31,437 bases of DNA, from positions 1-31,437 of the IMG/VR virus record IMGVR_UViG_3300024059_000021; one strand, written 5' to 3'. The translations under genes and the position numbers were made by a program. This DNA comes from a virus. The notes beneath the pieces were generated by a model. The model was given only the letters and a program-made list of their open reading frames with translations. It did not search any database and was not told the origin of the DNA. Positions within the stretch are counted from its first letter, which is position 1. Each line of letters begins with the position of its first letter. This document shows, piece after piece, positions 763 to 26,001 of this stretch.

Positions 763-1971
763 ATGAATAGACAACAAAACAACTATTTTAAAAATATAGC
801 AGATGAGACAATAGCGCACGGTGCTTTAACAAACTCAAAGCGCCCAAGTTGTTTTGTGCAGGGTGTGTATCCTACGCACATTAAGAAAGGCTTTAAATGT
901 TATCTCGTAGATGTCGATAACAATCAGTATGTCGATTTTATTTGTGGGTTGGGTACTAATTTTTTTGGGTATTCTAACCCTGATATCTCTGAAGCTGTAA
1001 GGGAAGTCATATATAATGGCGGCCCTTCGTTTAGTCTTAGTACTGACTATGAGTGTGAATATGCTCAAACATTTATAAACCTCTTTCCTTTCATCGATAA
1101 GGTGCGGTTTCTAAAAACTGGCACTGAAGGTTGCATGGCAGCAATCAAAATTGCAAGAGCCTTCACCGGCAGAAAGTGGATTATCTCAGATGGATATCAT
1201 GGATGGAGTGACCATTTCATCGGTCTTACTCCCCCTGCTTATGGTGTTAGTCCTGATCCATACGTTGCGAGATCAGAAGAAGCATTAAAACCCTCAGACA
1301 TAGCCGCTTACATCATAGAACCGATCATCACAGATCATAGTTTTGAGAGGATAAAATACCTCCAAAGACTAAGAGAATTTTGTGATAAGCATAAAATTCT
1401 TTTAATTTATGATGAGACAATTACAGCGTTTCGCTTTCCTAAATATTGTGCTGCTAGTCATTACAATATATATCCTGATCTATGGATTGGCGGAAAGGCC
1501 GTTGCTGGTGGTTATCCTTTAAGTGTTGTAGGTGGAAGACGTGATGTTATGGATAGTGATTATTTTGTTAGCGGTACTTGGGCTGGGGATCGTATATCTC
1601 TTGCAGCAGCTACAAAAGCCTTAGATCTAATTCACGGCCCTTATGATCCGATAGAACTATGGACAAAAGGCTTAGACTTTCTATCTGGGTTTAACGCCAT
1701 CTCTCCAGAAGTGCAGATTGTAGGCTATCCGACACGCGGAGTCATGAAGTACAAAACCCCTCAATTTCAAGCAGCGTTTATGCAAGAGATGTGTCTTGCA
1801 GGTGTGCTTTTCGGGCCGTCGTGGTTTTATAATCGCTGGTTAGATGAAGAAAAAGATAATGTATTATCACTAGTAAAATCGGTTGTGCGTAAAATTTTAC
1901 GCGGTCATATAACACTTAAGGGTGAAATGCCAAAAAGCCCATTTGCAGAAAGGTTTAGAAATGCTCGCTAA
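763..1971 (+). CDS. Class III PLP-dependent aminotransferase (glutamate-1-semialdehyde aminomutase-like)
   Basis: 402 residues, slightly shorter than the roughly 430 of glutamate-1-semialdehyde aminomutase (HemL). The fold-type I class III landmarks are present. KTGTEGCMAAIKIAR at about 118-132 matches the phosphate-binding segment. YHGW at 145-148 stacks on PLP. IYDETITAFRF supplies Asp217, which contacts the PLP nitrogen. GGKAVAGGYP supplies Lys245, the Schiff-base lysine. It is therefore likely an active transaminase or aminomutase. The substrate is unknown. A tetrapyrrole role is possible, but GSA-like aminotransferases also occur in surface-sugar clusters, and this window carries a NeuB-like synthase, a GNAT acetyltransferase and a Maf-like protein, so an amino-sugar role is worth considering. 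The ATG at 763 follows AGAGAG at a good distance. The C-terminal end overlaps the next gene by 11 bases. Confidence 0.85.
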   Translation: MNRQQNNYFKNIADETIAHGALTNSKRPSCFVQGVYPTHIKKGFKCYLVDVDNNQYVDFICGLGTNFFGYSNPDISEAVREVIYNGGPSFSLSTDYECEYAQTFINLFPFIDKVRFLKTGTEGCMAAIKIARAFTGRKWIISDGYHGWSDHFIGLTPPAYGVSPDPYVARSEEALKPSDIAAYIIEPIITDHSFERIKYLQRLREFCDKHKILLIYDETITAFRFPKYCAASHYNIYPDLWIGGKAVAGGYPLSVVGGRRDVMDSDYFVSGTWAGDRISLAAATKALDLIHGPYDPIELWTKGLDFLSGFNAISPEVQIVGYPTRGVMKYKTPQFQAAFMQEMCLAGVLFGPSWFYNRWLDEEKDNVLSLVKSVVRKILRGHITLKGEMPKSPFAERFRNAR

Positions 1972-2179
1972 ATTAAATGTAAAATGTGTTCAGAAGGACA
2001 AAAACGAAAAAGAGATAATTGAGTGGAGAGAAATCCTTGTAAATGAAGCAGCAATAGCTAGTTGCATAGAAGTGCCTGAAACAAACACCGCACTGATAAA
2101 ACTTCTAAATGGCGATCAGTTTTTATTCAAGGGTATTAATTCCGATATTTTGAAAGCATTTATAAATGATCACATATAA
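1961..2179 (+). CDS. Small hypothetical protein, 72 residues
   Basis: A 72-residue acidic protein of unknown function. The frame is also open from an ATG at 1922, but that start has no ribosome-binding site and would overlap the aminotransferase by 50 bases. The ATG at 1961 follows AGAAAGG by about eight bases and gives an 11-base overlap, so it is preferred. The middle (about residues 30-60) alternates hydrophobic and polar residues and suggests a small beta-rich fold. Its position between an aminotransferase and an acetyltransferase, with overlaps on both sides, argues for translational coupling. An acyl-carrier role was considered, but the DSL serine motif is absent. Confidence 0.6.
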   Translation: MLAKLNVKCVQKDKNEKEIIEWREILVNEAAIASCIEVPETNTALIKLLNGDQFLFKGINSDILKAFINDHI

Positions 2180-2702
2180 AGATCTCGATCCTGTAAGTCT
2201 CTATGCTGACATCCCAATCGAAGCAAGAGCATGGCGCAATAATTATGAAATTCGTAAGTGGTGTCGTCAACACACTCTCATCACACAAGAGCAACACGAC
2301 AGTTGGCACCATACGATTCAAGAACATCCAAGTATTAAGATGTTTGGCGTGGTTGCTAAAGGCGAATATGTAGGCGTGGCAGGTTTGACATCAATATGTG
2401 AAGTAAACCGCAATGCTGAATTTTCCTTATACATAGTCCCTAAGCAGCAGAAAAAAGGTTATGGGAAAAAAGCGTTGATAGCACTACTTAGACACGGCTT
2501 TGATAACTTTAACCTCAATAGAATTTGGGGTGAGACATTCGCCCACAACCCTGCTCATACAATGTTTTTAGAACTCGGTTTAAAGGATGAGGGCACGTTT
2601 AGGCAGTCGTACTTTCGTGAAGGTAAATATATAAACAGCCACATAGTGGCAGTACTAAGAGAAGAGTTTAAGCATCAAGCGAAGAGGCTGCAGTCAGTAT
2701 GA
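2166..2702 (+). CDS. GNAT-family N-acetyltransferase (RimL/PseH-like)
   Basis: 178 residues with the GNAT layout. The acetyl-CoA pyrophosphate-binding loop is seen as QQKKGYGKKAL (Q/RxxGxG/A type) at about residues 95-105, after the beta-4 strand AEFSLYIVP. The C-terminal half, with an NxxA-like segment (HNPAH) and FRQSYFREGKYINSHIVAVL, resembles the RimJ/RimL branch. That branch includes PseH, which acetylates the 4-amino group of a UDP-sugar in pseudaminic acid synthesis. Ribosomal-protein or antibiotic acetylation are alternatives. Neighbouring an aminotransferase, it could N-acetylate a newly made amino group (aminate, then acetylate). The start at 2166 overlaps the previous gene by 14 bases, and the stop overlaps the next gene by four (ATGA). 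Confidence 0.8.
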   Translation: MITYKDLDPVSLYADIPIEARAWRNNYEIRKWCRQHTLITQEQHDSWHHTIQEHPSIKMFGVVAKGEYVGVAGLTSICEVNRNAEFSLYIVPKQQKKGYGKKALIALLRHGFDNFNLNRIWGETFAHNPAHTMFLELGLKDEGTFRQSYFREGKYINSHIVAVLREEFKHQAKRLQSV

Positions 2703-14328: not shown

Positions 14329-14600
14329 CAGTAAAAAGTGGACCATTTGAGTTAGGCAGAAAATATTTAATCAGAACAGTAACCATGATCCAAATTGGTA
14401 GACTAGTCGAAGTTTTTGATAATGAACTAGTTTTAGAGGATGCATCGTGGATTGGCGACACAGGCCGGTTTAATGAATGTCTTAAAAGTCGTGATGTTTT
14501 GGAAGAAGTCGAACCTGCAGATGGTCGGGTAATCGTAGGGCGAAATGCAATCATTGACGTTTATGAGTGGAATCAAGACTTACCTAGAGAAGTCAAATGA
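14325..14600 (+). CDS. Hypothetical protein, 91 residues
   Basis: The start overlaps the small-terminase stop as ATGA and the stop overlaps the next ORF as ATGA. The product is beta-rich and acidic: YLIRTVTMIQIGRLVEVFDNELVLEDASWIG, with DTGRFNECL after it. That pattern (a strand pair around VEV-DNELVLEDASWIxDTGRF) occurs in small phage proteins of unknown function. I cannot assign a role. Its place between terminase small subunit and the SR-repeat ORFs suggests a link to packaging or virion assembly. Confidence 0.7.
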   Translation: MTVKSGPFELGRKYLIRTVTMIQIGRLVEVFDNELVLEDASWIGDTGRFNECLKSRDVLEEVEPADGRVIVGRNAIIDVYEWNQDLPREVK

Positions 14601-14866
14601 TAGCGTATTTATGCCCTCGCGATAATATCTCAAGATCTTTATCTGGGTCTTGGTCTAGGTCTATGTCTAGGTCTAGGTCTGGGTTTAGGTCTAGGTCTAT
14701 ATCTATGTCTAGGTCTAGGTCTATGTTTTGGTCTTGGTCTTGGTCTAGGTCTAGGACTGAGTCTGGGTCTAGGTCTAGGTCTTCGTCTAGGTCTAGGTCT
14801 AGGTCTAGGTCTTCGTCTAGGTCTTGGTCTGGGACTGAGTCTAGGTGTCTGGGAGGTATTAAATAA
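14597..14866 (+). CDS. SR/SW dipeptide-repeat protein, copy 1
   Basis: 89 residues. A short unique start (MIAYLCPRDNISRSLSGSW) is followed by about 65 residues of almost pure Ser-Arg, Ser-Trp and Ser-Gly dipeptides, encoded by GGTCTN hexamers, and a short end (CLGGIK). The product would be disordered, highly cationic and aromatic, suited to binding nucleic acid. AGAGAAG precedes the start, which overlaps the previous stop as ATGA. A near copy follows immediately. The ORF may be real, or incidental to a DNA element. Conservation of frame, start and stop in both copies favours coding. Confidence 0.55.
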   Translation: MIAYLCPRDNISRSLSGSWSRSMSRSRSGFRSRSISMSRSRSMFWSWSWSRSRTESGSRSRSSSRSRSRSRSSSRSWSGTESRCLGGIK

Positions 14867-15115
14867 ATGATAGCGTATTTATGTCCTCACGATAATATCT
14901 CAAGATCTTTATCTGGATCTTGGGCTAGGCCTAGGTCTGGATCTTGGGCTAGGTCTAGGTCTGGGTTTAGGTCTAGGTCTAGGTATAGGTCTAGGTATAG
15001 GTTTAGGTCTCGATCTAGGTCTCGATCTAGGCCTAGGTCTTGGTCTTGGTCTAGGTCTGGGTCTGAGTCTTGGCCTAGGTCTTGGTCTTGGTCTTGGTCT
15101 GGGAGTATTAAATAG
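14867..15115 (+). CDS. SR/SW dipeptide-repeat protein, copy 2
   Basis: 82 residues, paralogue of the ORF just upstream. The first 19 residues differ at one position (Arg8 to His). The repeat region diverges in order and includes Tyr-Arg and Pro-Arg pairs (YRSRYRFRSR, RPRSW). It ends GSIK. GGGAGG near the end of copy 1 can serve as its ribosome-binding site. The repeat keeps the same frame throughout although the number of hexamers differs between copies, so length change by whole hexamers has been tolerated but frameshifts have not. Confidence 0.55.
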   Translation: MIAYLCPHDNISRSLSGSWARPRSGSWARSRSGFRSRSRYRSRYRFRSRSRSRSRPRSWSWSRSGSESWPRSWSWSWSGSIK

Positions 15116-15141
15116 ATGAGAAAAAGGCAGGGAAAGAAGAA

Positions 15142-15321
15142 ATGAAACCAAATATTAAAGAATTAAAACCTGCAGAAGGTTTATGTATCAATTTGCCTAA
15201 TGGTAGACCAGCACTTCAGATCATTACTTACAAAGATGTGACGGTCAAGACTTGGACAGCAGATAGGAATGTTAGACTGGTGATCGATTTCAAAGAGCCT
15301 TTCATAAAGGATAAGGAATGA
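15142..15321 (+). CDS. Small hypothetical protein, 59 residues
   Basis: ATG at 15142 to TGA at 15319-15321, with AGGGAAAGAAGA just upstream and a four-base ATGA overlap with the next gene. The product (MKPNIKELKPAEGLCINLPN at the start) is mostly beta: PALQIITYKDVTVKTWTAD, then VRLVIDFKEP. No family recognised. The overlap, ribosome-binding site and filling of an otherwise empty gap make it a good small gene. Confidence 0.6.
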   Translation: MKPNIKELKPAEGLCINLPNGRPALQIITYKDVTVKTWTADRNVRLVIDFKEPFIKDKE

Positions 15322-15506
15322 AACGAGATGCTATCGAGTTAAGAAGTGAACCTCCTTATAGTGATTTTCAAAGTCTTGTTAGTAAGGAAGAATTCGAGAA
15401 GTACTTTAAAGATAGGCAGTATCATTATGAAGCACCATTAAAGCTTGCGACTTTAAGAGTGTTGGAAAGAATTGCTGATAGTTTGAAGGGTAAGGATAAA
15501 GACTAA
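15318..15506 (+). CDS. Small hypothetical protein, 62 residues
   Basis: A charged helical protein with no recognised motif. SKEEFEKYFKDRQYHYEAP is followed by LKLATLRVLERIADSLKG, an amphipathic helix resembling the oligomerising C-terminal helices of small virion proteins. The product at 16490-16729 also ends in a helix of this kind (LKGISSLLLEILNTLKLMAG). AAGGA precedes the start. The stop shares its last base with the ATG of the NeuB-like gene, so the two are coupled. Confidence 0.6.
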   Translation: MKRDAIELRSEPPYSDFQSLVSKEEFEKYFKDRQYHYEAPLKLATLRVLERIADSLKGKDKD

Positions 15507-16291
15507 TGTTTATTATTGCTGAAGTGGGATCAAACATATTCAAAACAGATAGTCCGAGTGCCAATCTCAAAATTGCTTATGAGCAGATAGTAAAAGCCAA
15601 ACGGTGCGGTGCTGATGCTGTTAAGTTCCAGATGTTCACATCTAAAGAATTATATGGTGAAGTGTATGAGTCCGTAGATAAGTATGCGCTACCACGTGCA
15701 TGGGTTGCTAGTCTTAAGGAATGTTGTGATGACAATGACATCGATTTTATGTGTAGCTGCTTTAGTGTGGGTGGTTATGAGTTCATTGATCCTTATGTCA
15801 GAATGCATAAGGTTGCTAGCCCTGAAGTGACAGATGTAAACATTGTCGCTTACTTAAAGAGACAAGATAAACCTGTCATCTGGTCGAATGGTTGTTCGCA
15901 TGTGTCCACTTGGGGGCACAAGATGAAAGATGTAATTTTAAATTGTGTGAGTCAATATCCTGCAACTGAATATGATTATGATTACTCGCCACCATCGCAA
16001 GATTCTATTTATACGTGGGGGATCTCTGACCACACGAAAGAATTAATAGCTGCTCTTATCACACGTAAACAAGGTGGCTCTTATTTCGAAAAGCATGTTG
16101 ATCTTTTAAGGCATGAAGGTAACACCACTCCAGATGCTTGTGTGTCCATGAATGAAATTGATTTTGGCCACTACTGTCGAGTATTAAGAGCACACAAACC
16201 TATAGATTTTGATGAGCAACGACAAGAGGCTTATCAATTATATGGACGAAAGCATGTTGATGGGGAGTGGTTTAGGCCCTTGCCCTCCTAG
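15506..16291 (+). CDS. NeuB-family nonulosonic acid synthase, SAF domain absent
   Basis: 261 residues, against about 340-350 for cellular NeuB/PseI/LegI. The TIM-barrel active-site residues are present: Glu6 in IIAEVGSN, Lys40 in DAVKFQMF, Lys102 in HKVASPE, Tyr151 in SQYP, His176 in ISDH and His197 in EKHV. The last two would bind the metal. The family condenses phosphoenolpyruvate with a hexosamine to make sialic, pseudaminic or legionaminic acid. The C-terminal SAF (antifreeze-like) domain, which in the meningococcal enzyme gives a substrate-binding arginine to the partner subunit, is absent. The protein ends soon after YGRKHVDGEWF. It may need a partner or have another substrate. Its neighbours are virion-type genes, not sugar genes. 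Confidence 0.85.
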   Translation: MFIIAEVGSNIFKTDSPSANLKIAYEQIVKAKRCGADAVKFQMFTSKELYGEVYESVDKYALPRAWVASLKECCDDNDIDFMCSCFSVGGYEFIDPYVRMHKVASPEVTDVNIVAYLKRQDKPVIWSNGCSHVSTWGHKMKDVILNCVSQYPATEYDYDYSPPSQDSIYTWGISDHTKELIAALITRKQGGSYFEKHVDLLRHEGNTTPDACVSMNEIDFGHYCRVLRAHKPIDFDEQRQEAYQLYGRKHVDGEWFRPLPS

Positions 16292-16356
16292 GTGGCGGTG
16301 TAATAGAGTAGTCTTTGATTCATTGTGTTTTTCCTTGCATTGGTTTAGTCCTTTCG

Positions 16357-16398
16357 CCCCCGCCAACAACTTATCTTGTCGGGGGATCTTTAATTTTG
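16357..16398 (+). terminator. Candidate intrinsic terminator after the NeuB-like gene
   Basis: CCCCCG (16357-16362) pairs with CGGGGG (16380-16385), with an inner ACAA/TTGT extension, followed by ATCTTTAATTTT. The tail is interrupted, so termination may be partial. It lies in the 198-base gap 16292-16489, which holds no ORF I trust. The rest of the gap probably carries a promoter for the next genes, though none matches consensus well. Confidence 0.6.
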
Positions 16399-16489
16399 CT
16401 ATTATATTTCTACAAATTCCTACTTTTGGTTAATAGATACTACAGCTCTTTCGCATCTTTTGACGCGGGAGGGTATTTAAAGGTTTTCT

Positions 16490-16729
16490 ATGGCTCTGTC
16501 AGAAAATAGAGGTGATAGAGAATACGATAAATTCACGGAAGACCTTAATGGCCAAACGTGTGTTCGCATTGCACCTGGTGCAATTACGGATTCAGTTGAT
16601 GGCAATGAGTTGGATATTGATAGTGCAGGTAGGGCACGGATGTACGACACTAAAGTGCATGACCAACTCAAAGGAATCTCTAGTTTACTCCTTGAAATTT
16701 TAAATACTCTCAAATTGATGGCGGGTTAA
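16490..16729 (+). CDS. Small probable virion protein, 79 residues
   Basis: AAAGG lies six bases before the ATG, and the gene follows a terminator-like hairpin, so it starts a new transcription unit. The product is acidic, with FTEDLNGQTCVRIAPGAI, then NELDIDSAGRARMYD, and an amphipathic C-terminal helix (LKGISSLLLEILNTLKLM). Short proteins with a polar N-terminus and an oligomerising helix are common as phage head or fibre accessory proteins. The gene ends one base before the next, and the three products in this group look like a set. Function not proven. Confidence 0.55.
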   Translation: MALSENRGDREYDKFTEDLNGQTCVRIAPGAITDSVDGNELDIDSAGRARMYDTKVHDQLKGISSLLLEILNTLKLMAG

Positions 16730-16730
16730 A

Positions 16731-17360
16731 ATGGAAGTAGCTATTAAAAATGGCAGCGGTGGCGATGTTGCCTTAGTAGATAAAAATAGAAGACTGCATA
16801 CTGAAACGATAATTCAGGAACAAGCGGATCATGCATGTGATTCAGGTATCGGGGAAAAGTACAATATCAATACTGGAGATATTACGGTTACCAACGCCAC
16901 AAAGCTCACGACACTGTATATAAAAAATACGGGATCAGAGGATTTAGTACCTACCGCACTCATTTATAATCTTGGTACGACGGCTAATGGTTCAGGTGAC
17001 GCCAAAATAGATGTTATACGCAATCCCGAGACTGGAGACATTGTCACCAACGCGAACGATGTTTTAGTGGGCACTGGAGAGGAAGCTAACCAGAATTTCG
17101 CTGCTACTAGCACTTTGACAGGAAACTTCTATAAAGGTGCGGTGGGAGAAACAGCGGTAAATGGTTCAGTTACTATTACCACAAGATCAGCATCAAACAC
17201 TGGCCGTATTTTTCTTTCTTTAGGAGCAATAACAATACCTCAAGGTAAATCTTTAGCTATCGACTACACGCCACCAACGTCTAACACTTCTCAGATTGTG
17301 CAATTTGCAGTTGCTTGTTTTGTACGAACTAGCAAGGTGACAGTAGGGGATGTTAATTGA
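16731..17360 (+). CDS. Probable virion surface/decoration protein, 209 residues
   Basis: Thr-, Asn-, Gly- and Ser-rich, beta-strand sequence without Lys-rich or catalytic motifs, typical of structural virion proteins. The N-terminus (IKNGSGGDVALVDKNRRL) matches in pattern that of the next gene's product (IKGGNGGGIANVTTRNQL), suggesting a shared docking module. The middle holds NATKLTTLYIKNTGSEDLV and SVTITTRSASNTGRIFLSLG, jelly-roll-like strands. It could be a head decoration or fibre protein. Direct adjacency and overlap (TTGA) with the next gene support joint expression. Confidence 0.6.
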   Translation: MEVAIKNGSGGDVALVDKNRRLHTETIIQEQADHACDSGIGEKYNINTGDITVTNATKLTTLYIKNTGSEDLVPTALIYNLGTTANGSGDAKIDVIRNPETGDIVTNANDVLVGTGEEANQNFAATSTLTGNFYKGAVGETAVNGSVTITTRSASNTGRIFLSLGAITIPQGKSLAIDYTPPTSNTSQIVQFAVACFVRTSKVTVGDVN

Positions 17361-17782
17361 TCAAGACAGTTATAAAAGGTGGAAATGGTGGAGGTATAGC
17401 CAATGTTACAACTAGAAATCAGCTTGTAACATCACCTCTTGATTTCTCCATTTTTTACACTGCATCAACGGCGAGTAACAATGTAGCTGTTAATGTTGTT
17501 CCACCGATGACGGGAAAGAATTTTGTCATTACGGATCTTATCCTTTCTGGTGATCGCTCTATTGCTCAGAATGGCGCTGTCACAGAAGTTTATGAAAACA
17601 GCATCGGTCCGACCAGCGCGACAGTTACAAAAACTATATATACGGATGAGATTGCAAAGCAGACGCGCGCAGTATTGACAGGGCTTAACATCATAGTAAC
17701 AGAAGCGCGTTGGGTAAATGTTAAGAGTGATGACGTGATAGTGAGATGTAATATTGCAGGTTACTATGTGGAAACCCCATGA
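17357..17782 (+). CDS. Probable virion surface protein, 141 residues
   Basis: The start is TTG at 17357, overlapping the previous stop. No ATG precedes the conserved N-terminal pattern, so TTG is accepted. After a Gly-rich N-terminus (VIKGGNGGG), strands such as FVITDLILSGDRSIA, TVTKTIYTDEI and LNIIVTEARWVNV suggest one compact beta-sandwich. It shares the N-terminal motif with the upstream product. Likely a capsid decoration or head-fibre component. The stop overlaps the next gene as ATGA. Confidence 0.6.
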   Translation: MIKTVIKGGNGGGIANVTTRNQLVTSPLDFSIFYTASTASNNVAVNVVPPMTGKNFVITDLILSGDRSIAQNGAVTEVYENSIGPTSATVTKTIYTDEIAKQTRAVLTGLNIIVTEARWVNVKSDDVIVRCNIAGYYVETP

Positions 17783-18303
17783 GAAATGCTGTTGTTATAG
17801 ATATCAATGGAACTCTTTCCGATGTTTCGAAAGTAGTCCACTACATTCAAGGTGCAGATAAGGATTGGAAAGGTTTCTTTGGAAACATGAATAAAGTTCC
17901 TGTTAATCCCATGGTCAAAATGTTTATCAATGCGTTGAAGGCTGGAAACCATGGTGTATTGGTGGTCTTAGTGTCTGGAGCTCCAGACATTTATGAAAGA
18001 CAAACTAAGGAATGGTTAGCTAAGCATGGCGTCAAATATGATGCTATTCATTTCCGCCCTGATTGGGATAAAAGGCGAGGTTATCAATTCAAAAAAACAC
18101 TATACGAAAAGAAGTTAAAAAATTTGTACCGAGTTAAGTTAGTGCTTGATGACAAGGAAGATGCTTGCAGAACTTGGACTAGTTTGGGGTTACAGTGTTG
18201 GAAGCTTCCAAGTGATATGGATGATGCGAACACTCCACAACAAAGTCAAGAACCTGGTAAAAGATACGCGCATCTAGCTAGAACCGCACGAACTCGGGTT
18301 TAA
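17779..18303 (+). CDS. HAD-superfamily protein, polynucleotide kinase-phosphatase-like
   Basis: 174 residues. HAD motifs are visible: VIDINGTLSD (motif I, Asp8), LVVLVSGAP (motif II serine), a Lys/Arg-rich segment KRRGYQFKKTL (motif III region) and LVLDDKEDAC (motif IV double Asp). The layout and FRPDWDKRRGYQFKKTLYE resemble the 3'-phosphatase domain of T4 polynucleotide kinase. No P-loop kinase domain is present. In motif I the second aspartate, the usual general acid of HAD phosphatases, is Asn10 (DIN instead of DxD), so activity may be altered. It might act on nucleic-acid ends or nucleotides. A role as the phosphatase step of sugar synthesis is a weaker alternative. Confidence 0.72.
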   Translation: MRNAVVIDINGTLSDVSKVVHYIQGADKDWKGFFGNMNKVPVNPMVKMFINALKAGNHGVLVVLVSGAPDIYERQTKEWLAKHGVKYDAIHFRPDWDKRRGYQFKKTLYEKKLKNLYRVKLVLDDKEDACRTWTSLGLQCWKLPSDMDDANTPQQSQEPGKRYAHLARTARTRV

Positions 18304-18538
18304 AATGTTGACAAGATTTCGGGTAAACGATAACTTCATTCTTACGTTGTAAGTCCTATTCAGACCTAACCGTAAAAAGTTTTGTGCTGGAAAAAAATGA
18401 ACAGCGTCGAAGATGGCTGAAGATTCGTTAAATTAAGTTGAGTAAGTGTATTTCGCGGTAGACTGACGAAACTTAGACCGGCCCGAGCCTTGATTGTTCA
18501 CTCGTAAAACGGGCGATCACTAAACTCCTAAGAGCTAC
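18304..18538 (+). ncRNA. 235-base non-coding stretch before terL, candidate structured RNA
   Basis: All frames are interrupted by stops, and the longest ATG frame is about 15 codons. TTGACA occurs at 18308-18313 with a weak -10 (TAACTT) 17 bases later. Several stems can be drawn: CTTAC/GTAAG near 18336-18348, GCTG/CAGC near 18388-18408, CGAA/TTCG near 18412-18430, CGGT/ACCG around 18455-18481, and GCCCG/CGGGC with an inner CGAG/CTCG at about 18481-18514. Such a long gap is out of keeping with the overlapped genes on both sides. It could be a small RNA, a long structured leader of the large-terminase gene or a packaging signal. Strand is inferred from context. Confidence 0.4.
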
Positions 18539-19804
18539 ATGACAGTATTTAAACTCCATAAATTCCAAGAAAAAGCCTTTGTATCAAAGAAGCGAATTAA
18601 TGTAATAGCCGCTGGTATTCAGTCGGGTAAAACGACAACGGGCGCTTTGAAGATGATCACTTGGGTAGCTAATGCTAAACCAGGTGACAATTTTATAATT
18701 GTAGCTCCAACTTATAAAATCCTCACACAAGCAACACTACCTAAGTTCTTGCAGATGTTTCAAGGTTACGGCAGATATCACAAAGTTGATTCTGTGTTTA
18801 AGGTAACTAATGGCGCCACCATCTACATCAGATCCTTAACAGATCCAAACGCCATTGAGGGTATCACTGATGTTGAGGGTGTGTGGCTTGATGAAGGTGG
18901 TTTGATTTCTCGTTACGCTTGGGAAAATGTGGAAGGGCGATCGGCATTTCGTCAAGCACCAATCTTTATTTCCACAACTCCGTATTCTTTGAATTGGCTT
19001 TTTAGAATGTGGGAAGAGTGGAAGGCAGGTAAACGTGAGGATGTTGAATTTTTTCAATTCACTTCCAAACAAAACCCATATTTCCCTGATGCTGAGTTTG
19101 AACGGCAAAGAAAACTATTAGATGCTCGTCGCTTTCAAATGAAATACATGGGTGTCTTTGGTCGTATGGAAGGCCTTGTCTACGAAAACTTGGCAACATG
19201 TTCCGCTATCCCACTCCCAGAAGGAACACAGTTTTATGCAGGTGTGGATTTCGGTTATACAAATCCCACCGCTATCACAATAAGAGCGTTGACACCTGAA
19301 GGAATACATTACCGTGTCGCTGAGTTTTATAAATCCAGGATGATGGTAGAGGATCTTGTGAAAGTATGCCAACAACGTAAACAGATTTACAACATTAAGA
19401 CATTTATCTGCGATCCATCTAGTCCCGCCAACATAGAAGCACTTAACCGCGGTGGCTGTCCTGCAATTGGAGCAGATAACCAGATACGTTTGGGTATTGA
19501 TCGACACTCACAGTTAATTAAAGGTGAAAGATTCTTTGTTTTTCGTGATGAGAATCCAATGGGACTTGATGAATACAGTACTTATCATTACCCTGAACCT
19601 AAAGACTACAAAATAGATGATAATCAGAAAGAAGTGGAACCCGTCAAAGCTTCAGATCATGGTTGTGACGCCGACAGATATGTTACAATGCATTTATGGG
19701 ATTACAAAGAGACACGAACTTTCGGTAAAGATATACCGGGTTCTAATGAAGCAAGACTTCGCTGGTTAAAAGCTGGTGGTTCTTCTAGATTTGGTAAAGG
19801 ATAA
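18539..19804 (+). CDS. Terminase large subunit
   Basis: 421 residues with both motor and nuclease domains. Walker A is AGIQSGKTT (25-33). Walker B is GVWLDEGG (Asp118, Glu119). The coupling motif lies at about STT (145-147). In the RNase H-like nuclease, Asp237 (GVDFGYTNPTA), Asp292 (FICDPSSP) and Asp373/Asp377 (ASDHGCDADRY) give the metal-binding acids. It pumps DNA into the prohead through the portal and cuts the concatemer. The start at 18539 has a weak ribosome-binding site (AAGAG) at the end of the 235-base non-coding region, so expression may depend on that leader. The small subunit lies 4.2 kb upstream, an unusual separation. Confidence 0.95.
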   Translation: MTVFKLHKFQEKAFVSKKRINVIAAGIQSGKTTTGALKMITWVANAKPGDNFIIVAPTYKILTQATLPKFLQMFQGYGRYHKVDSVFKVTNGATIYIRSLTDPNAIEGITDVEGVWLDEGGLISRYAWENVEGRSAFRQAPIFISTTPYSLNWLFRMWEEWKAGKREDVEFFQFTSKQNPYFPDAEFERQRKLLDARRFQMKYMGVFGRMEGLVYENLATCSAIPLPEGTQFYAGVDFGYTNPTAITIRALTPEGIHYRVAEFYKSRMMVEDLVKVCQQRKQIYNIKTFICDPSSPANIEALNRGGCPAIGADNQIRLGIDRHSQLIKGERFFVFRDENPMGLDEYSTYHYPEPKDYKIDDNQKEVEPVKASDHGCDADRYVTMHLWDYKETRTFGKDIPGSNEARLRWLKAGGSSRFGKG

Positions 19805-19806
19805 AT

Positions 19807-20121
19807 ATGATTTACGAATTTTATTGTAAGCCCTGCAACGCTATAGATGAAGTGGTTCGACCAGTGGCGGAAGCTACAGTTCCTTATTCGTGTCCCGAGT
19901 GTGGTGGTGAAACAGTTAGACGATACACCGCACCACAGGTGATAACTCCAGGTGAAGATATTGCAGAGTTTAACCCCGCTTTTGGTAAAGTGTTGACAAG
20001 AGCACAAGCACAAGCTGAAGCGAAATCTCGCGGTTGGACTGAAGTTGGGAATGAGAATGTACACAAAGGTGTGGGTGATCCTAAACAACACGATTATGAA
20101 TTTAACGACTATATAGTTTGA
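19807..20121 (+). CDS. FmdB-like zinc-ribbon protein
   Basis: 104 residues. YEFYCKPCNAIDEV and YSCPECGGETVRRYTAPQV form the CxxC...CxxC zinc ribbon of the FmdB regulatory-protein family. The remaining 60 residues are polar and mixed. Short zinc-ribbon proteins often lie between large terminase and portal in phages. They may help head assembly or bind nucleic acid, but their role is not established. AAAGGA precedes the ATG. Confidence 0.75.
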   Translation: MIYEFYCKPCNAIDEVVRPVAEATVPYSCPECGGETVRRYTAPQVITPGEDIAEFNPAFGKVLTRAQAQAEAKSRGWTEVGNENVHKGVGDPKQHDYEFNDYIV

Positions 20122-20129
20122 GGTGAAGC

Positions 20130-21989
20130 ATGGCGGTTGATACTGAAAGTGCGGTGCCTGAAGGTCAGACTGGTTCTCGCGAAGAGGAACAGTCTGCTGA
20201 AGATCGTAAGACCGTCAAAATGGTCGAAAGATTATTTAGAAATGCTAAGAGACATCGCCAATCTTATGATAAGAATTGGGTAGAAAATTATAAGTTCTTT
20301 CGTGGCAAACAGTGGACAGAAAAAAGACCTTCTTACAGACATTCGGAAGTTCTTAATCTCATCCATTCAGCTATCCAAACTATGGTACCAATACTTACGG
20401 ATTCACGCCCTAACATAGAGGCATTACCTGAGAATCCGAGTGATTTTGATTTTGCTAAAATAATGACACAACTTCTTGTTGCTAACTGGGATCGCAACAC
20501 CTCTGGGCAAGTGGTAGTTGAAGCTATCTATGACTTCTCAGTTTATGGTACTGCGATATCAGAGCAACCATGGAATCCTGACCTTCATAACGGTTTAGGT
20601 GATTTTGAGTTCAAGACAATAGATCCAATGTATGTTTATCCAAATCCTGGTGCTACTGATATCAACACTGAAGATAATAAGTTTCTGATTATAGCAAAAC
20701 CTACAGATGTGGATGAAGTTAAGAGGAAATATAAGAAAAAAGCACATCTTATCAAGTCAGATTTGTCAGACATAGATATGGCAAAAACTGCAAAACTTGA
20801 CATGGATGACTATAGAATACGCTCAGCTACTGACAATCTTTCATTAGTTCAAGGTGAGCGTGCTCAAGATGCAGAAACACCTAATCAAGTTTTATTACTA
20901 ACATGTTGGTTACGTGATGAAACTCTCATAGAAGAGGAAATTAAAGAAAAGTCTGCTGATGGAACACTAAAGAAAGGTTTCAGAACTAAGAAGAAATATC
21001 CAAATGGTAGAAAGATAATAATAGCTTCTGGTCAGTTGTTAGAAGATGTTGAGAATCCATATCTTGACGGTAAATTCCCTTATGCTAAGGCAGTTGATCA
21101 CGTCATGCCTAGAGAATTTTGGGGCCAGGGTGAAGTTGATCAGCTTAAAGGCCCGCAACAAGTCATCAATAAACTTATCTCCTATGCAATGGATACTCTC
21201 TCACTTATGGGAAATCCGATCTGGAAGAATCCTATATCTTCAGATGTGGATTCTAGTTCTATAATTAACCAGCCCGGTTTGGTAATTGATTACAATTTAG
21301 GAAATGAACCAACGCGCGAAATGGGTGTTGATGTTCAATCTAGTGTCTTTGCCACACTTGATAGGATGAGAGATCTATTTGACCAGATTAGTGGTATCAA
21401 TGAAGTAACTCAAGGGGCGCAACCCCGCAATGCTTCGGGTGTTGCTATCGACTCCTTGCAAGAAGCTGCTCAAACTAAGTTACGTCTTAAGGGCAGGAAC
21501 ATAGAAGCGTGGCTAACTAAGGCTGGACAGCAGTTAGCTTCTAGGATATTACAGTTTTATTCAATACCTCGAATAGTTAGAATTACAGAAGACGAAAATG
21601 CGGCAACTTATTTTCGTTTTGCTGTTGATGAAGTTGCAGATAAGTCGGGAGAAGTGCAAAGAGTTGTTACAGTCCAGCCATTTCAAGAAGTGGGTGATGC
21701 TGCAGCTAGCACATTAGAACCGGGCCAGGTGCAACAATTCGCGATTAAGGGTAATATAGATATAAAGATAACGACTGGTTCATCCCTACCTTTCGCAAAA
21801 GCTAAAAGGGAAGCTCGAGCAAAGGAATTGTATCAACTCGGTATCTATGATGAAGAGGATTTGCTTACTGACCTAGAACATAATAGGAAAGAGCAGATCC
21901 TTGAAAAATTTGCAAGGAGAAAGGAAGCTGAAGCAGAGGCAATAGCCTTACAACAGCAGCAAGCGGCCGCTCCACAACAAGCAATCTAG
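20130..21989 (+). CDS. Portal protein
   Basis: 619 residues, in the size and style of portals of P22-like podoviruses and related phages. The N-terminal region has RQSYDKNWVENYKFFRGKQW and NLIHSAIQTMVPILTDSRPN, characteristic of this portal group, then FKTIDPMYVYPNPGAT in the wing. The stem and crown region has MPREFWGQGEVDQLKGPQQ and INEVTQGAQPRNASGVAI. The C-terminus is a Gln/Ala/Glu-rich helix (KEAEAEAIALQQQQAAAPQQ). It forms the dodecameric vertex through which DNA enters and to which the adaptor binds. GAGGTGAAGC precedes the ATG. Confidence 0.92.
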   Translation: MAVDTESAVPEGQTGSREEEQSAEDRKTVKMVERLFRNAKRHRQSYDKNWVENYKFFRGKQWTEKRPSYRHSEVLNLIHSAIQTMVPILTDSRPNIEALPENPSDFDFAKIMTQLLVANWDRNTSGQVVVEAIYDFSVYGTAISEQPWNPDLHNGLGDFEFKTIDPMYVYPNPGATDINTEDNKFLIIAKPTDVDEVKRKYKKKAHLIKSDLSDIDMAKTAKLDMDDYRIRSATDNLSLVQGERAQDAETPNQVLLLTCWLRDETLIEEEIKEKSADGTLKKGFRTKKKYPNGRKIIIASGQLLEDVENPYLDGKFPYAKAVDHVMPREFWGQGEVDQLKGPQQVINKLISYAMDTLSLMGNPIWKNPISSDVDSSSIINQPGLVIDYNLGNEPTREMGVDVQSSVFATLDRMRDLFDQISGINEVTQGAQPRNASGVAIDSLQEAAQTKLRLKGRNIEAWLTKAGQQLASRILQFYSIPRIVRITEDENAATYFRFAVDEVADKSGEVQRVVTVQPFQEVGDAAASTLEPGQVQQFAIKGNIDIKITTGSSLPFAKAKREARAKELYQLGIYDEEDLLTDLEHNRKEQILEKFARRKEAEAEAIALQQQQAAAPQQAI

Positions 21990-21997
21990 GAGTATAT

Positions 21998-22855
21998 ATG
22001 GAAACAGCTGATGATTTGTACGCTCAAGCGATGGCGCCCACACCTCCCATGGAGTACAAAGATGAGGGTGTTCAGGAATCACAGCCTAGTGAACAAGTGC
22101 AAGAAAAACCTTCTTCCGATGATGGTCGGGCCTTAGTTTACAAGGGCCAGGAAATTAAAATCGATGATGATAAGTACAAGATGCTAGCTCAGAAAGGATA
22201 TTCTTATGAGAAAGACATGCATCAACTTAAAGTCGATCGTAAGTTATGGGAGAATGAGAAGACGAAAGAAATGGGCTCGCTTGAGGAGCTTAGGGCAATT
22301 CAGGAATACACCAAGGAGAATCCAGCTTTTCAATCCCTTATACAAAGGGAGTGGGCGAAAATTCAAGGTGGCAGCCCTGTTTCTTCTGATGTGCAAACTC
22401 AGCAGCAATCCTTCGGAACTGATGAGCAGTTGAACGCAGTACTTCAACGCTTGAATAAGCAAGAAGAGTATATGCGTGCACAAGAAGAAGCGAAAAAAGA
22501 AGCTGACTTAGAAATGAGTGTCTCTACATATAAAGATGCTTATGGGACGTTTGATTGGTCTACTAAAGATGAACTTGGCCAAACTTTAGAAGACAAGATC
22601 ACACAACACGCAATTGATAATAAGATTGGAAATTTTAAGACAGCTGCTAATGACTACCTTTTTGATGAACACATAAAGCGAGCATCATTAGAGTCAAAGG
22701 AACAAGCTGCTAAAAAGATCCAGGAACAGCACAAACTTGGTTTGGGTAAAGTAACGAGTGAAAGTCAACTTAAGATTGATAAAGTTGATGGTGTTAGGAA
22801 AAAATCATATAACGATTTGGCTGCTGAGGCCCTGAAAGATCTAGGCCTTGGTTAA
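21998..22855 (+). CDS. Scaffolding protein
   Basis: 285 residues, highly charged and helical, rich in Glu, Gln, Lys and Asp, lying between portal and major capsid as scaffolds do. The N-terminus is disordered and Pro/Glu-rich. The middle is coiled coil (NAVLQRLNKQEEYMRAQEEA). The C-terminus is basic and helical (KVDGVRKKSYNDLAAEAL), the usual coat-binding end. The segment ALVYKGQEIKIDDDKYKMLA is also typical of podovirus scaffolds. It would guide prohead assembly and then exit or be degraded. No protease motif is seen, so release rather than self-cleavage is expected. Confidence 0.82.
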   Translation: METADDLYAQAMAPTPPMEYKDEGVQESQPSEQVQEKPSSDDGRALVYKGQEIKIDDDKYKMLAQKGYSYEKDMHQLKVDRKLWENEKTKEMGSLEELRAIQEYTKENPAFQSLIQREWAKIQGGSPVSSDVQTQQQSFGTDEQLNAVLQRLNKQEEYMRAQEEAKKEADLEMSVSTYKDAYGTFDWSTKDELGQTLEDKITQHAIDNKIGNFKTAANDYLFDEHIKRASLESKEQAAKKIQEQHKLGLGKVTSESQLKIDKVDGVRKKSYNDLAAEALKDLGLG

Positions 22856-22866
22856 GGAGGCTAATA

Positions 22867-23784
22867 ATGGCGCTTACTTACGACCAAATTACGGCAATTA
22901 CCGAAAAAAGGTTTTTGCCTAAGTTGGTAGACAACATTTTCAATAGTAATCCTCTCCTCAAGAAATTGAAGGAGAAGGAAGATCTTCAACCAGGTGGGGA
23001 CAAAATAATTTGCCCACTTAACTATGCGACTGTCACTGCATCAGGGTGGTATCAAGGGAGTGAAACCCTCTCCACCGTAGATAATGAGACAATCAGTGCT
23101 GCAGAGTATGATTGGAAACAATTGTACGCCAACATCTCCATAACTCGTCGTGATGAGCTTCGAAATATGGGCGATGCTGCTATCATCAACTTTGTTAAGT
23201 CTAAAGTTATGATCGCAGAAAAGACCATCCGCGATAAGTTGGCAACTGGTCTTTACAATGACGGTACTGACTCCAAGCAAATCCAAGGATTGAAGCTTGC
23301 AGTTGCAACTGGAAATTCTGTCGGAGGAATCGATCAGTCTTCGTATTCTTGGTGGCAAGCAAACGTAGACAGTTCAACAACAACTCTAACAATTTCTGCT
23401 ATGCAGGGAATGTATGGAGATTGTGGCGAGGGTACAGAGTATCCTAACCTTGTCATTGGCGATCAAGACATGTTCGATCGTTACTATTCTCTACTTCAAC
23501 CACAACAGCGTTTTGTGGATGAAGAGATGGCTAGTGGCGGATTTAAGTCTTTGCAATTTAACGGTATACCTGTAGTGGTTGACGCTAATGCAGCATCTGG
23601 TGACATGTATTTCTTAAATCTCGACTACATCACTTTGATGCCACACAAAGACGAAAATTTCAGATTCGAACCATTCACTAAACCTATCAATCAGAATGTA
23701 AAAGTTGCGAAAATATTCTGGATGGGCGGACTTGGTCATTCTAACAACAGACGTCAAGGACTTCTTGACGCCATCACAGCTTAA
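22867..23784 (+). CDS. Major capsid protein (HK97 fold)
   Basis: 305 residues. Immediately after the scaffold, preceded by the best ribosome-binding site of the late region (AAGGAGG). The N-terminus (TEKRFLPKLVDNIFNSNPLLKKL) leads into strands around GDKIICPLNYATVTASGWY, the E-loop region, and LYANISITRRDELRNMGDAAIINFV, the spine helix. The C-terminal part has FNGIPVVVDANAASGDMYFLNLDYI, the P-domain and A-domain signature of this group. It builds the icosahedral shell. No Lys/Asn cross-link pair can be assigned. Confidence 0.9.
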   Translation: MALTYDQITAITEKRFLPKLVDNIFNSNPLLKKLKEKEDLQPGGDKIICPLNYATVTASGWYQGSETLSTVDNETISAAEYDWKQLYANISITRRDELRNMGDAAIINFVKSKVMIAEKTIRDKLATGLYNDGTDSKQIQGLKLAVATGNSVGGIDQSSYSWWQANVDSSTTTLTISAMQGMYGDCGEGTEYPNLVIGDQDMFDRYYSLLQPQQRFVDEEMASGGFKSLQFNGIPVVVDANAASGDMYFLNLDYITLMPHKDENFRFEPFTKPINQNVKVAKIFWMGGLGHSNNRRQGLLDAITA

Positions 23785-23799
23785 GGAAGGGATTACGAT

Positions 23800-24276
23800 A
23801 TGGCTTTTTATAGCGTAGATCCCGTTAGATTCGGGGTTGACATTTCAGGCACGACTGCAACATTAGGTGTTAATGATCCAGAAATTGGATCTCGTTGCGT
23901 CGTTGATGAGCTCGAGTACTTGTTTGTTTACAATGCAGGTGGCGAGCAAATCGGTGTTGGACAACCAGTAACTCTATCTGGTGTGACTGGATACAGTGTA
24001 ACTGTATCTTGTGTTACAGCAGCAGATATGGCACTGGGTGTAAGACAACATTCCACAATGACTACAGCGACTTACGGTTGGGTAGCGACACGTGGAATTG
24101 GTACTGTCGAGATGTCCACAAACGAAAGTTGTGTGACTGGAGAAGTCTTGGCAGTTGGCGCTGAAGGTTTTGGCCTTGCGTCTAACTCTACAGATTTCCA
24201 AACACCAACAGTTGCTAAGGCTCTTGAGTCAATAGCATCTGCTGGATCAGGTGTTGCGTTCTTCTCATTACTTTAA
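23800..24276 (+). CDS. Probable capsid decoration protein
   Basis: 158 residues, Gly/Thr/Val-rich and beta-stranded (LFVYNAGGEQIGVGQPVTLSG, then VSCVTAADMALGVRQHS, YGWVATRGIGTVEM). This pattern of short strands with alternating small residues resembles head decoration proteins encoded directly after a major capsid gene. A role in stabilising the shell is inferred from place and composition. GGAAGGGA precedes the ATG. Four Cys residues are unusual for a cytoplasmic beta protein but no pattern is evident. Confidence 0.65.
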   Translation: MAFYSVDPVRFGVDISGTTATLGVNDPEIGSRCVVDELEYLFVYNAGGEQIGVGQPVTLSGVTGYSVTVSCVTAADMALGVRQHSTMTTATYGWVATRGIGTVEMSTNESCVTGEVLAVGAEGFGLASNSTDFQTPTVAKALESIASAGSGVAFFSLL

Positions 24277-24286
24277 GGAGTTTTTA

Positions 24287-25339
24287 ATGGTTCGTCGTTT
24301 AGTTGAAATGGAATTGGAATATCTGAACACTATAGATAATCCGCCACAATCGCCCCAAGCTTTACATAAGCAATCGGCGACTAACGACGATCCTACTATC
24401 AATTCCTGGAGAGAGATATGGATCAAAAACCAGCGAATTAATCATGAGATTTGTGAGAGTTTTTGTTCCAACGGGATAGGTAAGATATACGGGGAATTCA
24501 ATTTGAAACCCTGCATTCTTGCTGGTTCCGGCCCTTCTCTTAAAACTAATGTGGAAGATCTTAAAAACAAGGGTGCTATTCCTTTAATATCATGTCTTCA
24601 CAATTTTCACTTCATGGTCGACCACGGTATTGATGTGAATTATTTCGTGACTCTAGACGCGGGTGAGATCACGCTACCGGAAATTAGTGAAGGGGGGAAA
24701 GAGAAGCATGAATATTATTTGGAACGAACCAAGGATTTTACTCTTTTAGCTTTCGTGGGTACCTCACCAGCTCTAGTTAAAGCATGGAAGGGTAAAATTC
24801 TTTGGTATAACTGTCCTATTCCTGATCAAAAGGTTAAGGATGAGTACGCAAAAGTAGAGCGTTTTGATAATTATGTAGCTAATGGCGGAAATGTCTTAGG
24901 TGCAGCTGTGTATATAGCTAAAGCGTATTTAGGGGCTAACCCTATTGCATACATCGGTGCCGATTTTGCCTTTGGTTATAATAAGAAATTTCATGGTTGG
25001 GATTCTTCTTATGACGCGCAATTAGGGAAGGTCATTCGGACAGTCGATTGTTATGGCAATAAAGTGTATACTTGGCAATCATACTATAATTTTAAATGTT
25101 GGCATGATTCAATCAGTATGAAATGTCCCGGAGAATGGATAAATTGTACTGAAGGTGGAACTTGGGGGGTATATCCCGAAGGGCTAATTGCCAGTATTAG
25201 ACATAAACCCCTCAAAGCATTTATTGACGGGTATAATCTTTATAGTGCAATGAAGTTTCAGGCAGAAAACCCACAAGATGCTTCTGAAGATTCTGGAATA
25301 CCAAATATTCCACCTCATCCGAAGCTCATGTTTAGTTAA
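24287..25339 (+). CDS. DUF115/Maf-like protein, putative nonulosonate glycosyltransferase or MptE-like enzyme
   Basis: 350 residues from the ATG at 24287, which has AAGGAG six bases upstream. The in-frame start at 24251 overlaps the previous gene and has no site. CILAGSGPSLKTNVEDLK (about 76-93) matches the GxGPSL motif of the DUF115 family. YFVTLDAGE and YIGADFAFGYNKKFHGW parallel the (G)(Q/A)DxAF...H segment of Maf (motility accessory factor) proteins. Maf proteins add pseudaminic or legionaminic acid to flagellin. The archaeal MptE pterin kinase shares this domain, so the reaction is open. The gene sits within the capsid cluster, between a decoration protein and two small virion-like proteins, and a NeuB-like synthase lies in the same operon. 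Modification of virion proteins is the attractive inference. Confidence 0.72.
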   Translation: MVRRLVEMELEYLNTIDNPPQSPQALHKQSATNDDPTINSWREIWIKNQRINHEICESFCSNGIGKIYGEFNLKPCILAGSGPSLKTNVEDLKNKGAIPLISCLHNFHFMVDHGIDVNYFVTLDAGEITLPEISEGGKEKHEYYLERTKDFTLLAFVGTSPALVKAWKGKILWYNCPIPDQKVKDEYAKVERFDNYVANGGNVLGAAVYIAKAYLGANPIAYIGADFAFGYNKKFHGWDSSYDAQLGKVIRTVDCYGNKVYTWQSYYNFKCWHDSISMKCPGEWINCTEGGTWGVYPEGLIASIRHKPLKAFIDGYNLYSAMKFQAENPQDASEDSGIPNIPPHPKLMFS

Positions 25340-25350
25340 AGGATAAAAAA

Positions 25351-25620
25351 ATGGCTTATACAGCTAGTTCCTTAGTCAAGTCGGTTTGGGGCAATCAAGC
25401 GGTTCAACAATACCGAGTAACCGCCGACGCTGCTAGTGGATCTGTTGATACAGGATTGGGTGTTATCGATTCCATTCAACATGCACCACAAAGTTGTGCA
25501 TCTGCAGGTTATCGAGCATTCATGAACACCAATTCAGGCTTAACGGCGTTGAATGGAACAGTAGCACTGTCGGGTTTAGCGTCTGGTGATGTGCTATTCT
25601 TAACAGTAGTAGGACACTAG
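25351..25620 (+). CDS. Small probable virion protein, 89 residues
   Basis: Ala/Ser/Gly/Val-rich, with strands QQYRVTADAASGSVDTGL, TALNGTVALSGLASGDVLFLTVV. The composition and single-sandwich size suit a virion surface or head protein. AAAGGA precedes the ATG. The gene follows the Maf-like protein by eleven bases, and the next gene starts nine bases after it. Its high Ser/Thr content would offer many O-glycosylation sites if the Maf-like enzyme modifies neighbours, but this is not evidence of modification. Confidence 0.6.
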   Translation: MAYTASSLVKSVWGNQAVQQYRVTADAASGSVDTGLGVIDSIQHAPQSCASAGYRAFMNTNSGLTALNGTVALSGLASGDVLFLTVVGH

Positions 25621-25629
25621 GAGTCAAGC

Positions 25630-26001
25630 ATGGGTTTCATACAAAGATTTGAAGCTCAAACAGCTTCTGGAGCTTCAACAAGCTCATATATAGATTTGGG
25701 TACGACTAATTTTGACGAAATGTCAGTTAAATATGTCACCATGTCAACTGGTGCTGAGCAAGCTGTCTGGGCAGCTGATGCGATGACACCAGCAAGTGCT
25801 GCATCGGCAACATTCTATCCTGTAGCGGTTAAGGATGTGCAAACAGCGGCAGCTGCTTATGATGCTTTGACAGTGACGACAGCACTTAGTGGTGGGAATT
25901 GGGGTACTTTTAAAGCACCTCCATTTAGGTTTGTTCAGTTCATTGGTAGTGCGGTGGTATCTGGTGGTGTTTCGTTTAGTGTAGTTTGTCGAGGTAATTA
26001 A
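25630..26001 (+). CDS. Small probable virion protein, 123 residues
   Basis: Another Ala/Ser/Thr-rich beta protein (FEAQTASGASTSSYIDLGT, TPASAASATFYPVAVKD, TALSGGNWGTFKAPPFRFVQF). The ending SGGVSFSVVCRGN and the strand GTFKAPPFRFVQFIG fit a compact virion beta-sandwich. TAGGAG lies six bases before the ATG. Related in style to the previous product though not clearly homologous. Likely head or head-tail accessory. Confidence 0.6.
   Translation: MGFIQRFEAQTASGASTSSYIDLGTTNFDEMSVKYVTMSTGAEQAVWAADAMTPASAASATFYPVAVKDVQTAAAAYDALTVTTALSGGNWGTFKAPPFRFVQFIGSAVVSGGVSFSVVCRGN

Follow-up and report, generated by a model that had tools for sequence, protein, structure and literature searches.

Glycosylation of phage virions has so far been described for a few mycobacteriophages. 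In Che8, Corndog and Myrna, a phage-encoded glycosyltransferase is thought to modify structural proteins of the capsid or tail tube (PMC12363180), and the transferase alone was reported to be phage-encoded. No report of nonulosonate modification of phage virions was found in the literature searched, subscription journals lying outside its coverage. The Maf flagellin glycosyltransferases belong to another enzyme family. Their central PF01973 domain is similar to the sialyltransferase Cst-II, their C-terminal domain is weakly similar to flagellin and export chaperones, and the known Maf enzymes modify flagellin; one Maf has been studied by expression in an E. coli strain that accumulates CMP-Neu5Ac (PMC11339370).

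The window analysed here is the whole of the linear 31,437-base IMG/VR record IMGVR_UViG_3300024059_000021, which represents 31.4 kb of the genome of an uncultivated phage. Its replication block is directed leftward, its structural block rightward, and the end piece (1-2702) rightward as well. The structural block runs from NeuB through small genes to the terminase, the portal, the major capsid protein (MCP), a Ser/Thr-rich small gene, the PF01973 gene and further small virion-type genes. Four genes had been singled out in a first-pass annotation made from the sequence alone as a scattered sialic-acid-like gene set; all four are open at the coordinates below and belong to the families then named, as judged with Pfam and NCBIfam profiles. 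The main features are as follows.

763..1971, + strand: class III aminotransferase, 3' part of the sugar cassette (Aminotran_3 PF00202, 1.7e-37)
1922..2179, + strand: small ORF between aminotransferase and GNAT (position only)
2166..2702, + strand: PseH-like GNAT acetyltransferase, last gene of the cassette (PF13302, 5e-13)
15506..16291, + strand: NeuB/PseI-family nonulosonic acid synthase (PF03102, 9e-31)
18539..19804, + strand: terminase large subunit, synteny anchor (phrog_2, 4e-44)
20130..21989, + strand: portal protein (phrog_156, 6e-59)
22867..23784, + strand: MCP, synteny anchor, possible acceptor (phrog_9953, 2e-72)
23800..24276, + strand: small gene with a Ser/Thr-rich product, flanked by the MCP and transferase genes; candidate acceptor whose position is that of a decoration-like protein (S+T 20.9%)
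24287..25339, + strand: putative protein O-glycosyltransferase with CMP-nonulosonate as donor, Maf-like and reduced to the core domain (PF01973, 5.5e-19)
25351..26001, + strand: two Ser/Thr-rich small genes 3' of the transferase, candidate acceptors (S+T 20-21%)

Like the Maf of Magnetospirillum (5mu5), the phage protein has the central PF01973 domain and its fold, and like the genes of Maf nonulosonate clusters, its gene keeps company with NeuB, CTP_transf_3, PseB-like and PseH-like genes and lies beside a major surface-assembly gene. It differs from the Maf systems in being reduced to the core and linked to the capsid rather than to flagellin, and its pathway uses an aminotransferase of class III and lacks a recognised PseG. 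The pseudaminic and legionaminic pathways (PseB-C-H-G-I-F; SpsE/SpsF) have in common with the phage relatives a dehydratase, an acetyltransferase, a NeuB-type synthase and a cytidylyltransferase. Unlike them, the phages have a class III aminotransferase in place of the DegT-type PseC, an extra MocA-like protein and no recognised hydrolase, and most members of the clade have the genes at two separate genomic locations. The archaeal MptE (8sd5) shares the PF01973 domain, but the phage protein is shorter, matches its fold more weakly and has other gene neighbours. Compared with the mycobacteriophages, in which a phage transferase likewise appears to act on structural proteins, most of the sugar pathway is encoded by the phage here, and both enzyme family and sugar class are different.

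Phages of a large uncultivated tailed group thus probably decorate their own particles with a self-made sialic-acid-like sugar. We put at roughly 65% the probability that the phage encodes its own nonulosonic-acid pathway together with a transferase acting on a virion protein. The gene families, conserved catalytic motifs, co-occurrence, synteny and Maf-like fold are established by the analysis and support this reading.

Gene positions and the sugar cassette in relatives

Three queries (NeuB, PF01973 protein, MCP) against IMG/VR gave, together with the window, 150 loci, or 102 groups once loci sharing sequence had been merged. The relatives sampled are the closest ones (the best 80 matches were kept), more distant MCP relatives lying outside the sample. 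Among these closest relatives, the PF01973 gene is found about 1.5 kb (1.2-2.0 kb) 3' of the MCP, on the same strand, in all 84 deduplicated groups with more than 2.5 kb downstream, and 3' of the MCP in 51/51 groups anchored on the MCP alone. In 47 groups, NeuB and the terminase share a strand, with NeuB on the 5' side. Its unbiased presence counts are 20/27 groups with more than 9 kb upstream, 17/26 in another such count, and 37/45 whole records when located anywhere; a count of 48/56 is inflated by the selection rule. In the 46 groups with all four genes, median pairwise identity is 34% for NeuB and 51% for both the PF01973 protein and the MCP, values low enough to indicate that the genes have been retained through deep divergence. 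The co-occurrence of NeuB and DUF115 (the former name of PF01973) in relatives, to which the first-pass annotation had looked for a check, is borne out by conserved positions across a divergent phage clade. With one sequence as query, no DUF115 relative was detected in viral contigs; with an alignment as query, 117 were. The terminase frame of one related locus (L003, 2729-4278) runs on into an intein-like, Hint-type sequence, CFRKGTLIKTVEGDKPIQEIGVNDYVLTPLG.

The relatives carry a cassette made, in order, of a PseB-like dehydratase, a MocA-like oxidoreductase, a CTP_transf_3 activator of the NeuA type, a class III aminotransferase and a PseH-like GNAT. In the closest long relative (G036, MCP 82% identical), this cassette lies 3' of the tail genes, with a small ORF between aminotransferase and GNAT. 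Identity to the last genes of the G036 cassette is 59% for the window aminotransferase and 54% for the window GNAT, and a 70-aa ORF of G036 stands at the place matching window 1922-2179, with undetectable similarity. The two window genes are, on gene order and identity, the 3' end of the conserved cassette. Directly 5' of the aminotransferase, the window has a DNA methylase (1-753; PF01555, 9e-11) at the place where relatives carry CTP_transf_3. All five main cassette genes occur in order in 10 of 17 relatives by phmmer alone, most of the others being partial or cut by a contig end.

It had been noted that NeuA was not seen in the window and that the host could supply it, related phages being the place to look. 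The CTP_transf_3 gene is indeed not found within the window; it is found in the relatives (29 of 45 records, plus G040 via phmmer), so that the host need not be its source. Among the 22 records of at least 33 kb, NeuB is present in 21, CTP_transf_3 in 21, the dehydratase in 20, a clear aminotransferase in 21, and all four in 20. One of the two remaining records (G043) misses the dehydratase alone, its contig starting just 5' of CTP_transf_3. The other (G044) keeps PF01973; NeuB, CTP_transf_3 and the dehydratase are all absent and the aminotransferase match is weak. The transferase can persist there without the pathway, perhaps on a host donor. About 6.5 kb separate the equivalents of the window right end and the aminotransferase in G036, which would place the first half of the cassette in the part of the genome missing from the contig. 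The dehydratase, MocA and activator genes would therefore be located in the unsequenced gap of the window genome.

In four deep-branching records (G050, G051, G052 and G054), NeuB is part of the cassette and a direct neighbour of CTP_transf_3 and the aminotransferase, and three of the four also have the dehydratase close by; the NeuB matches of G051 and G052 hold an internal stop. Such an arrangement links genes that are otherwise scattered to a single pathway. The suggestion that the four genes act together, offered as an inference, thereby comes out stronger than it was made, through the shared cassette and the presence of NeuB within it in these four relatives.

The individual cassette enzymes score under the curated equivalog cut-offs. 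The dehydratase of the relatives matches PF02719 (3e-58), keeps the STDKA and YG..K motifs and has PseB as best NCBIfam family, with 181 of 408 bits. For the GNAT (2166-2702), the best is TIGR03585 PseH, with 72 bits against a cut-off of 93. The aminotransferase (763-1971) is of class III, nearest to HemL-type enzymes, instead of the usual DegT type. No PseG/NeuC-type hydrolase was recognised among the annotated cassette proteins of G036, which leaves one pathway step unexplained. Among 190 genomes from the class to which G056 belongs, none gave a strong aminotransferase match, a result that lacks a positive control and is thus uninformative on bacterial origin.

The synthase and its C-terminal arginine

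The PF03102 barrel of the window NeuB scores 107.5 bits against a curated cut-off of 22.1. Residues K40, Q42, K102, S174, H176, E195 and H197 are invariant across 47 phage NeuB homologues and align with meningococcal NeuB. The AF2 model (pLDDT 94) has as best folds 6ncs (Foldseek 2e-15), 1xuu NeuB and 8h2c PseI. Compared with structures, the family profile ranks PseI 8h2c first (215 bits), followed by SpsE (180) and meningococcal NeuB (135), a ranking which mildly favours a pseudaminic-type product and thereby a pseudaminic-type identity for the sugar. The equivalog scores (PseI 91 of 340 bits, NeuB_NnaB 81 of 400) are so far below the cut-offs that the specific product is not assignable.

The SAF domain is present in most relatives and absent from the window NeuB and eleven other phage NeuBs. 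Five changes are needed to account for its loss on the NeuB tree, at least three of them forced by supported branches. The window enzyme retains a C-terminal arginine, R257, which is preceded by a small hairpin in the AF2 model (pLDDT 94) and aligns with the SAF arginine R314 of meningococcal NeuB; the latter contacts the substrate in the neighbouring subunit. Nine of the 12 SAF-less NeuBs end 1-5 residues past the R314-aligned arginine, and the G-aromatic-R surroundings are shared as well. PDB 4ipi and 4ipj are structures of meningococcal NeuB mutated at R314. In three further short NeuBs (L088, L098, L109), the terminal arginine is missing too. Between NeuB and the terminase, the window also encodes a HAD phosphatase of the polynucleotide kinase 3'-phosphatase type (17779-18303; PF25109, 6e-20).

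The transferase-like protein, its possible acceptors and alternative readings

The family to which the 24287-25339 product belongs is currently named 'MptE-like' in Pfam and was formerly MAF_flag10/DUF115. Built on 64 relatives, the AF2 model of the protein reaches a pLDDT of 95.5, and its best solved fold by Foldseek is the Magnetospirillum Maf 5mu5 (1.6e-10 over 358 columns), followed by archaeal MptE 8sd5 (2e-5 over 220 columns) and then by human ST8SiaIII and other sialyltransferases. The sequence profile, searched against the PDB, has 5mu5 Maf as sole match below E 0.01 (4e-4). The choice between Maf and MptE, which the first-pass annotation had set as a test of its proposal, falls to Maf on both profile and fold. 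The phage protein has 350 aa against 632-666 for 5mu5, the N-terminal Rossmann-like and C-terminal helical domains of Maf being absent, and for that reason it is classed as a Maf-like core only. It is a putative functional equivalent of the Maf core, as judged from the model, and we do not assign it to Maf proper. Further viral proteins with a PF01973-type fold, named MptE-like, occur in BFVD. Several of them, of 540-714 aa and from uncultured phages, carry extra sequence in addition to the fold, and one is annotated as a methyltransferase.

A route can be proposed from these families. The PseB-like dehydratase, class III aminotransferase and PseH-like acetyltransferase would produce an amino/acetamido sugar, the order of steps being only a likely one, and the MocA-like protein would take part at an unassigned step. 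NeuB would condense this sugar with phosphoenolpyruvate and the CTP_transf_3 enzyme would activate the product to a CMP-sugar. The Maf-like protein would then move the sugar to Ser/Thr residues of a virion protein, in the cytoplasm, late in infection. The target would most likely be a small protein encoded beside the transferase, or the capsid protein.

Beta-rich virion proteins are commonly rich in Ser and Thr, so Ser/Thr content is weak evidence for acceptors. The richness that had been pointed out is real: S+T amounts to 19-20% in 16731-17782 and 20-21% in 23800-24276, 25351-25620 and 25630-26001, against 8-13% in most other window proteins and 9% in the transferase. Since the transferase is placed among capsid and small virion genes, we infer that the adjoining virion proteins are the likeliest acceptors. 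A homologue of the 23800-24276 product (49% identical) stands at the same place in G036, and the product of the first gene after the transferase (25351-25620) has a 63% identical counterpart in G036.

Several points count against virion modification by a phage-encoded pathway: the absent Maf end domains, the G044 record, the class III aminotransferase, the sub-cut-off scores, the lack of a recognised hydrolase and of a detectable INPHARED isolate relative of the transferase or activator, and the location of the activator, dehydratase and MocA genes outside the window. The main rival, which we consider unlikely, keeps the phage-made nonulosonic acid and makes the host its target, either flagellin or surface glycans altered against other phages. 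Phages often change host surfaces, and the cassette alone could supply a host pathway. Flagellin is also the substrate of the known Maf enzymes (PMC11339370), but the Maf C-terminal domain that resembles flagellin and export chaperones is missing from the phage protein, and the annotated window proteins include no recognised flippase or polymerase for polysaccharides. The position of the transferase argues further against a host target: it lies beside the capsid gene in every one of the 84 groups of closest relatives, and among structural genes in an unrelated contig. The latter (L198) is a 65.6 kb contig of a Sphingomonadales MAG whose terminase, portal and head-morphogenesis gene differ from those of the window; besides the PF01973 gene, it carries CTP_transf_3 and NeuB, this being the sole NeuB found in that MAG. 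It is phage-like and unrelated to the window clade, either a prophage or a binned free phage. A radical SAM gene (14775-16415) lies directly 3' of its CTP_transf_3.

A piecemeal gain from bacteria of NeuB, the cassette and the PF01973 protein as metabolic cargo, with no joint function, is considerably less likely. The distance of NeuB from the cassette in the main clade and the presence of PF01973 without NeuB in G044 would agree with such a history, as would the lack of correlation, in 45 phages, between NeuB and MCP distances once terminase and PF01973 are accounted for. However, in the same phages NeuB and PF01973 distances correlate after removal of MCP and terminase (partial r 0.36, p 0.001), which fits functional coupling or linked exchange; the set is present in 20/22 near-full-length records, and NeuB sits in the cassette of the four deep-branching phages. 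The weakest alternative, in which the 24287-25339 product would be a 6-hydroxymethylpterin diphosphokinase of the MptE type or some other nucleotide-binding enzyme without a part in glycosylation, has the current Pfam name and the second-ranking 8sd5 fold match on its side and is most improbable, given the better Maf matches by profile and fold, the sialyltransferases next after MptE, the lack of a pterin gene among annotated window proteins and the constant presence of NeuB and a sugar activator in the same genomes; the MptE reading was rejected on fold and genomic context.

Decoration of virions by a phage-encoded nonulosonate pathway remains our preferred reading. In a more specific form, to which we give even odds, a whole tailed-phage clade decorates its virions with a self-made nonulosonic acid by means of a minimal Maf-like transferase, whose gene is a near-core member of the capsid module. 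This would be the phage equivalent of the sialylation of flagellin, the system having arisen or spread more than once and following a partly new route, with a class III aminotransferase and no recognised hydrolase. If virion decoration is true, the sugar would matter to the particle itself, for stability, adsorption or host-glycan mimicry, given the retention of the pathway through deep divergence. It would also give a possible function to a phage family that currently carries the name of a pterin enzyme, and protein sialylation could be studied on a minimal Maf-like core. The predicted virion modification is directly testable by mass spectrometry.

The INPHARED isolates gave no tblastn match with the window NeuB, the window DUF115, the L198 DUF115 or the G036 activator. 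Aminotransferase matches in INPHARED (27-34% identity; some carry a HemL annotation, and many come from very short records or from records with bacterial names) were set aside. Isolates with a related MCP (Mx8, BUCT555, MW202803; about 29-33% identity) have no PF01973 annotation beside the MCP in the inspected regions. The evidence supports a nonulosonate pathway and Maf-like transferase that are widespread in uncultivated phages and undetected in INPHARED isolates.

Over positions 14597-15115 of the window, the hexamer TCTAGG is repeated imperfectly about 75 times, which produces two Ser-Arg repeat ORFs that both start with MIAYLCP.DNISRSLSGSW. Among the compared loci, the doubled TCTAGG hexamer occurs otherwise only in L001, itself part of the window.
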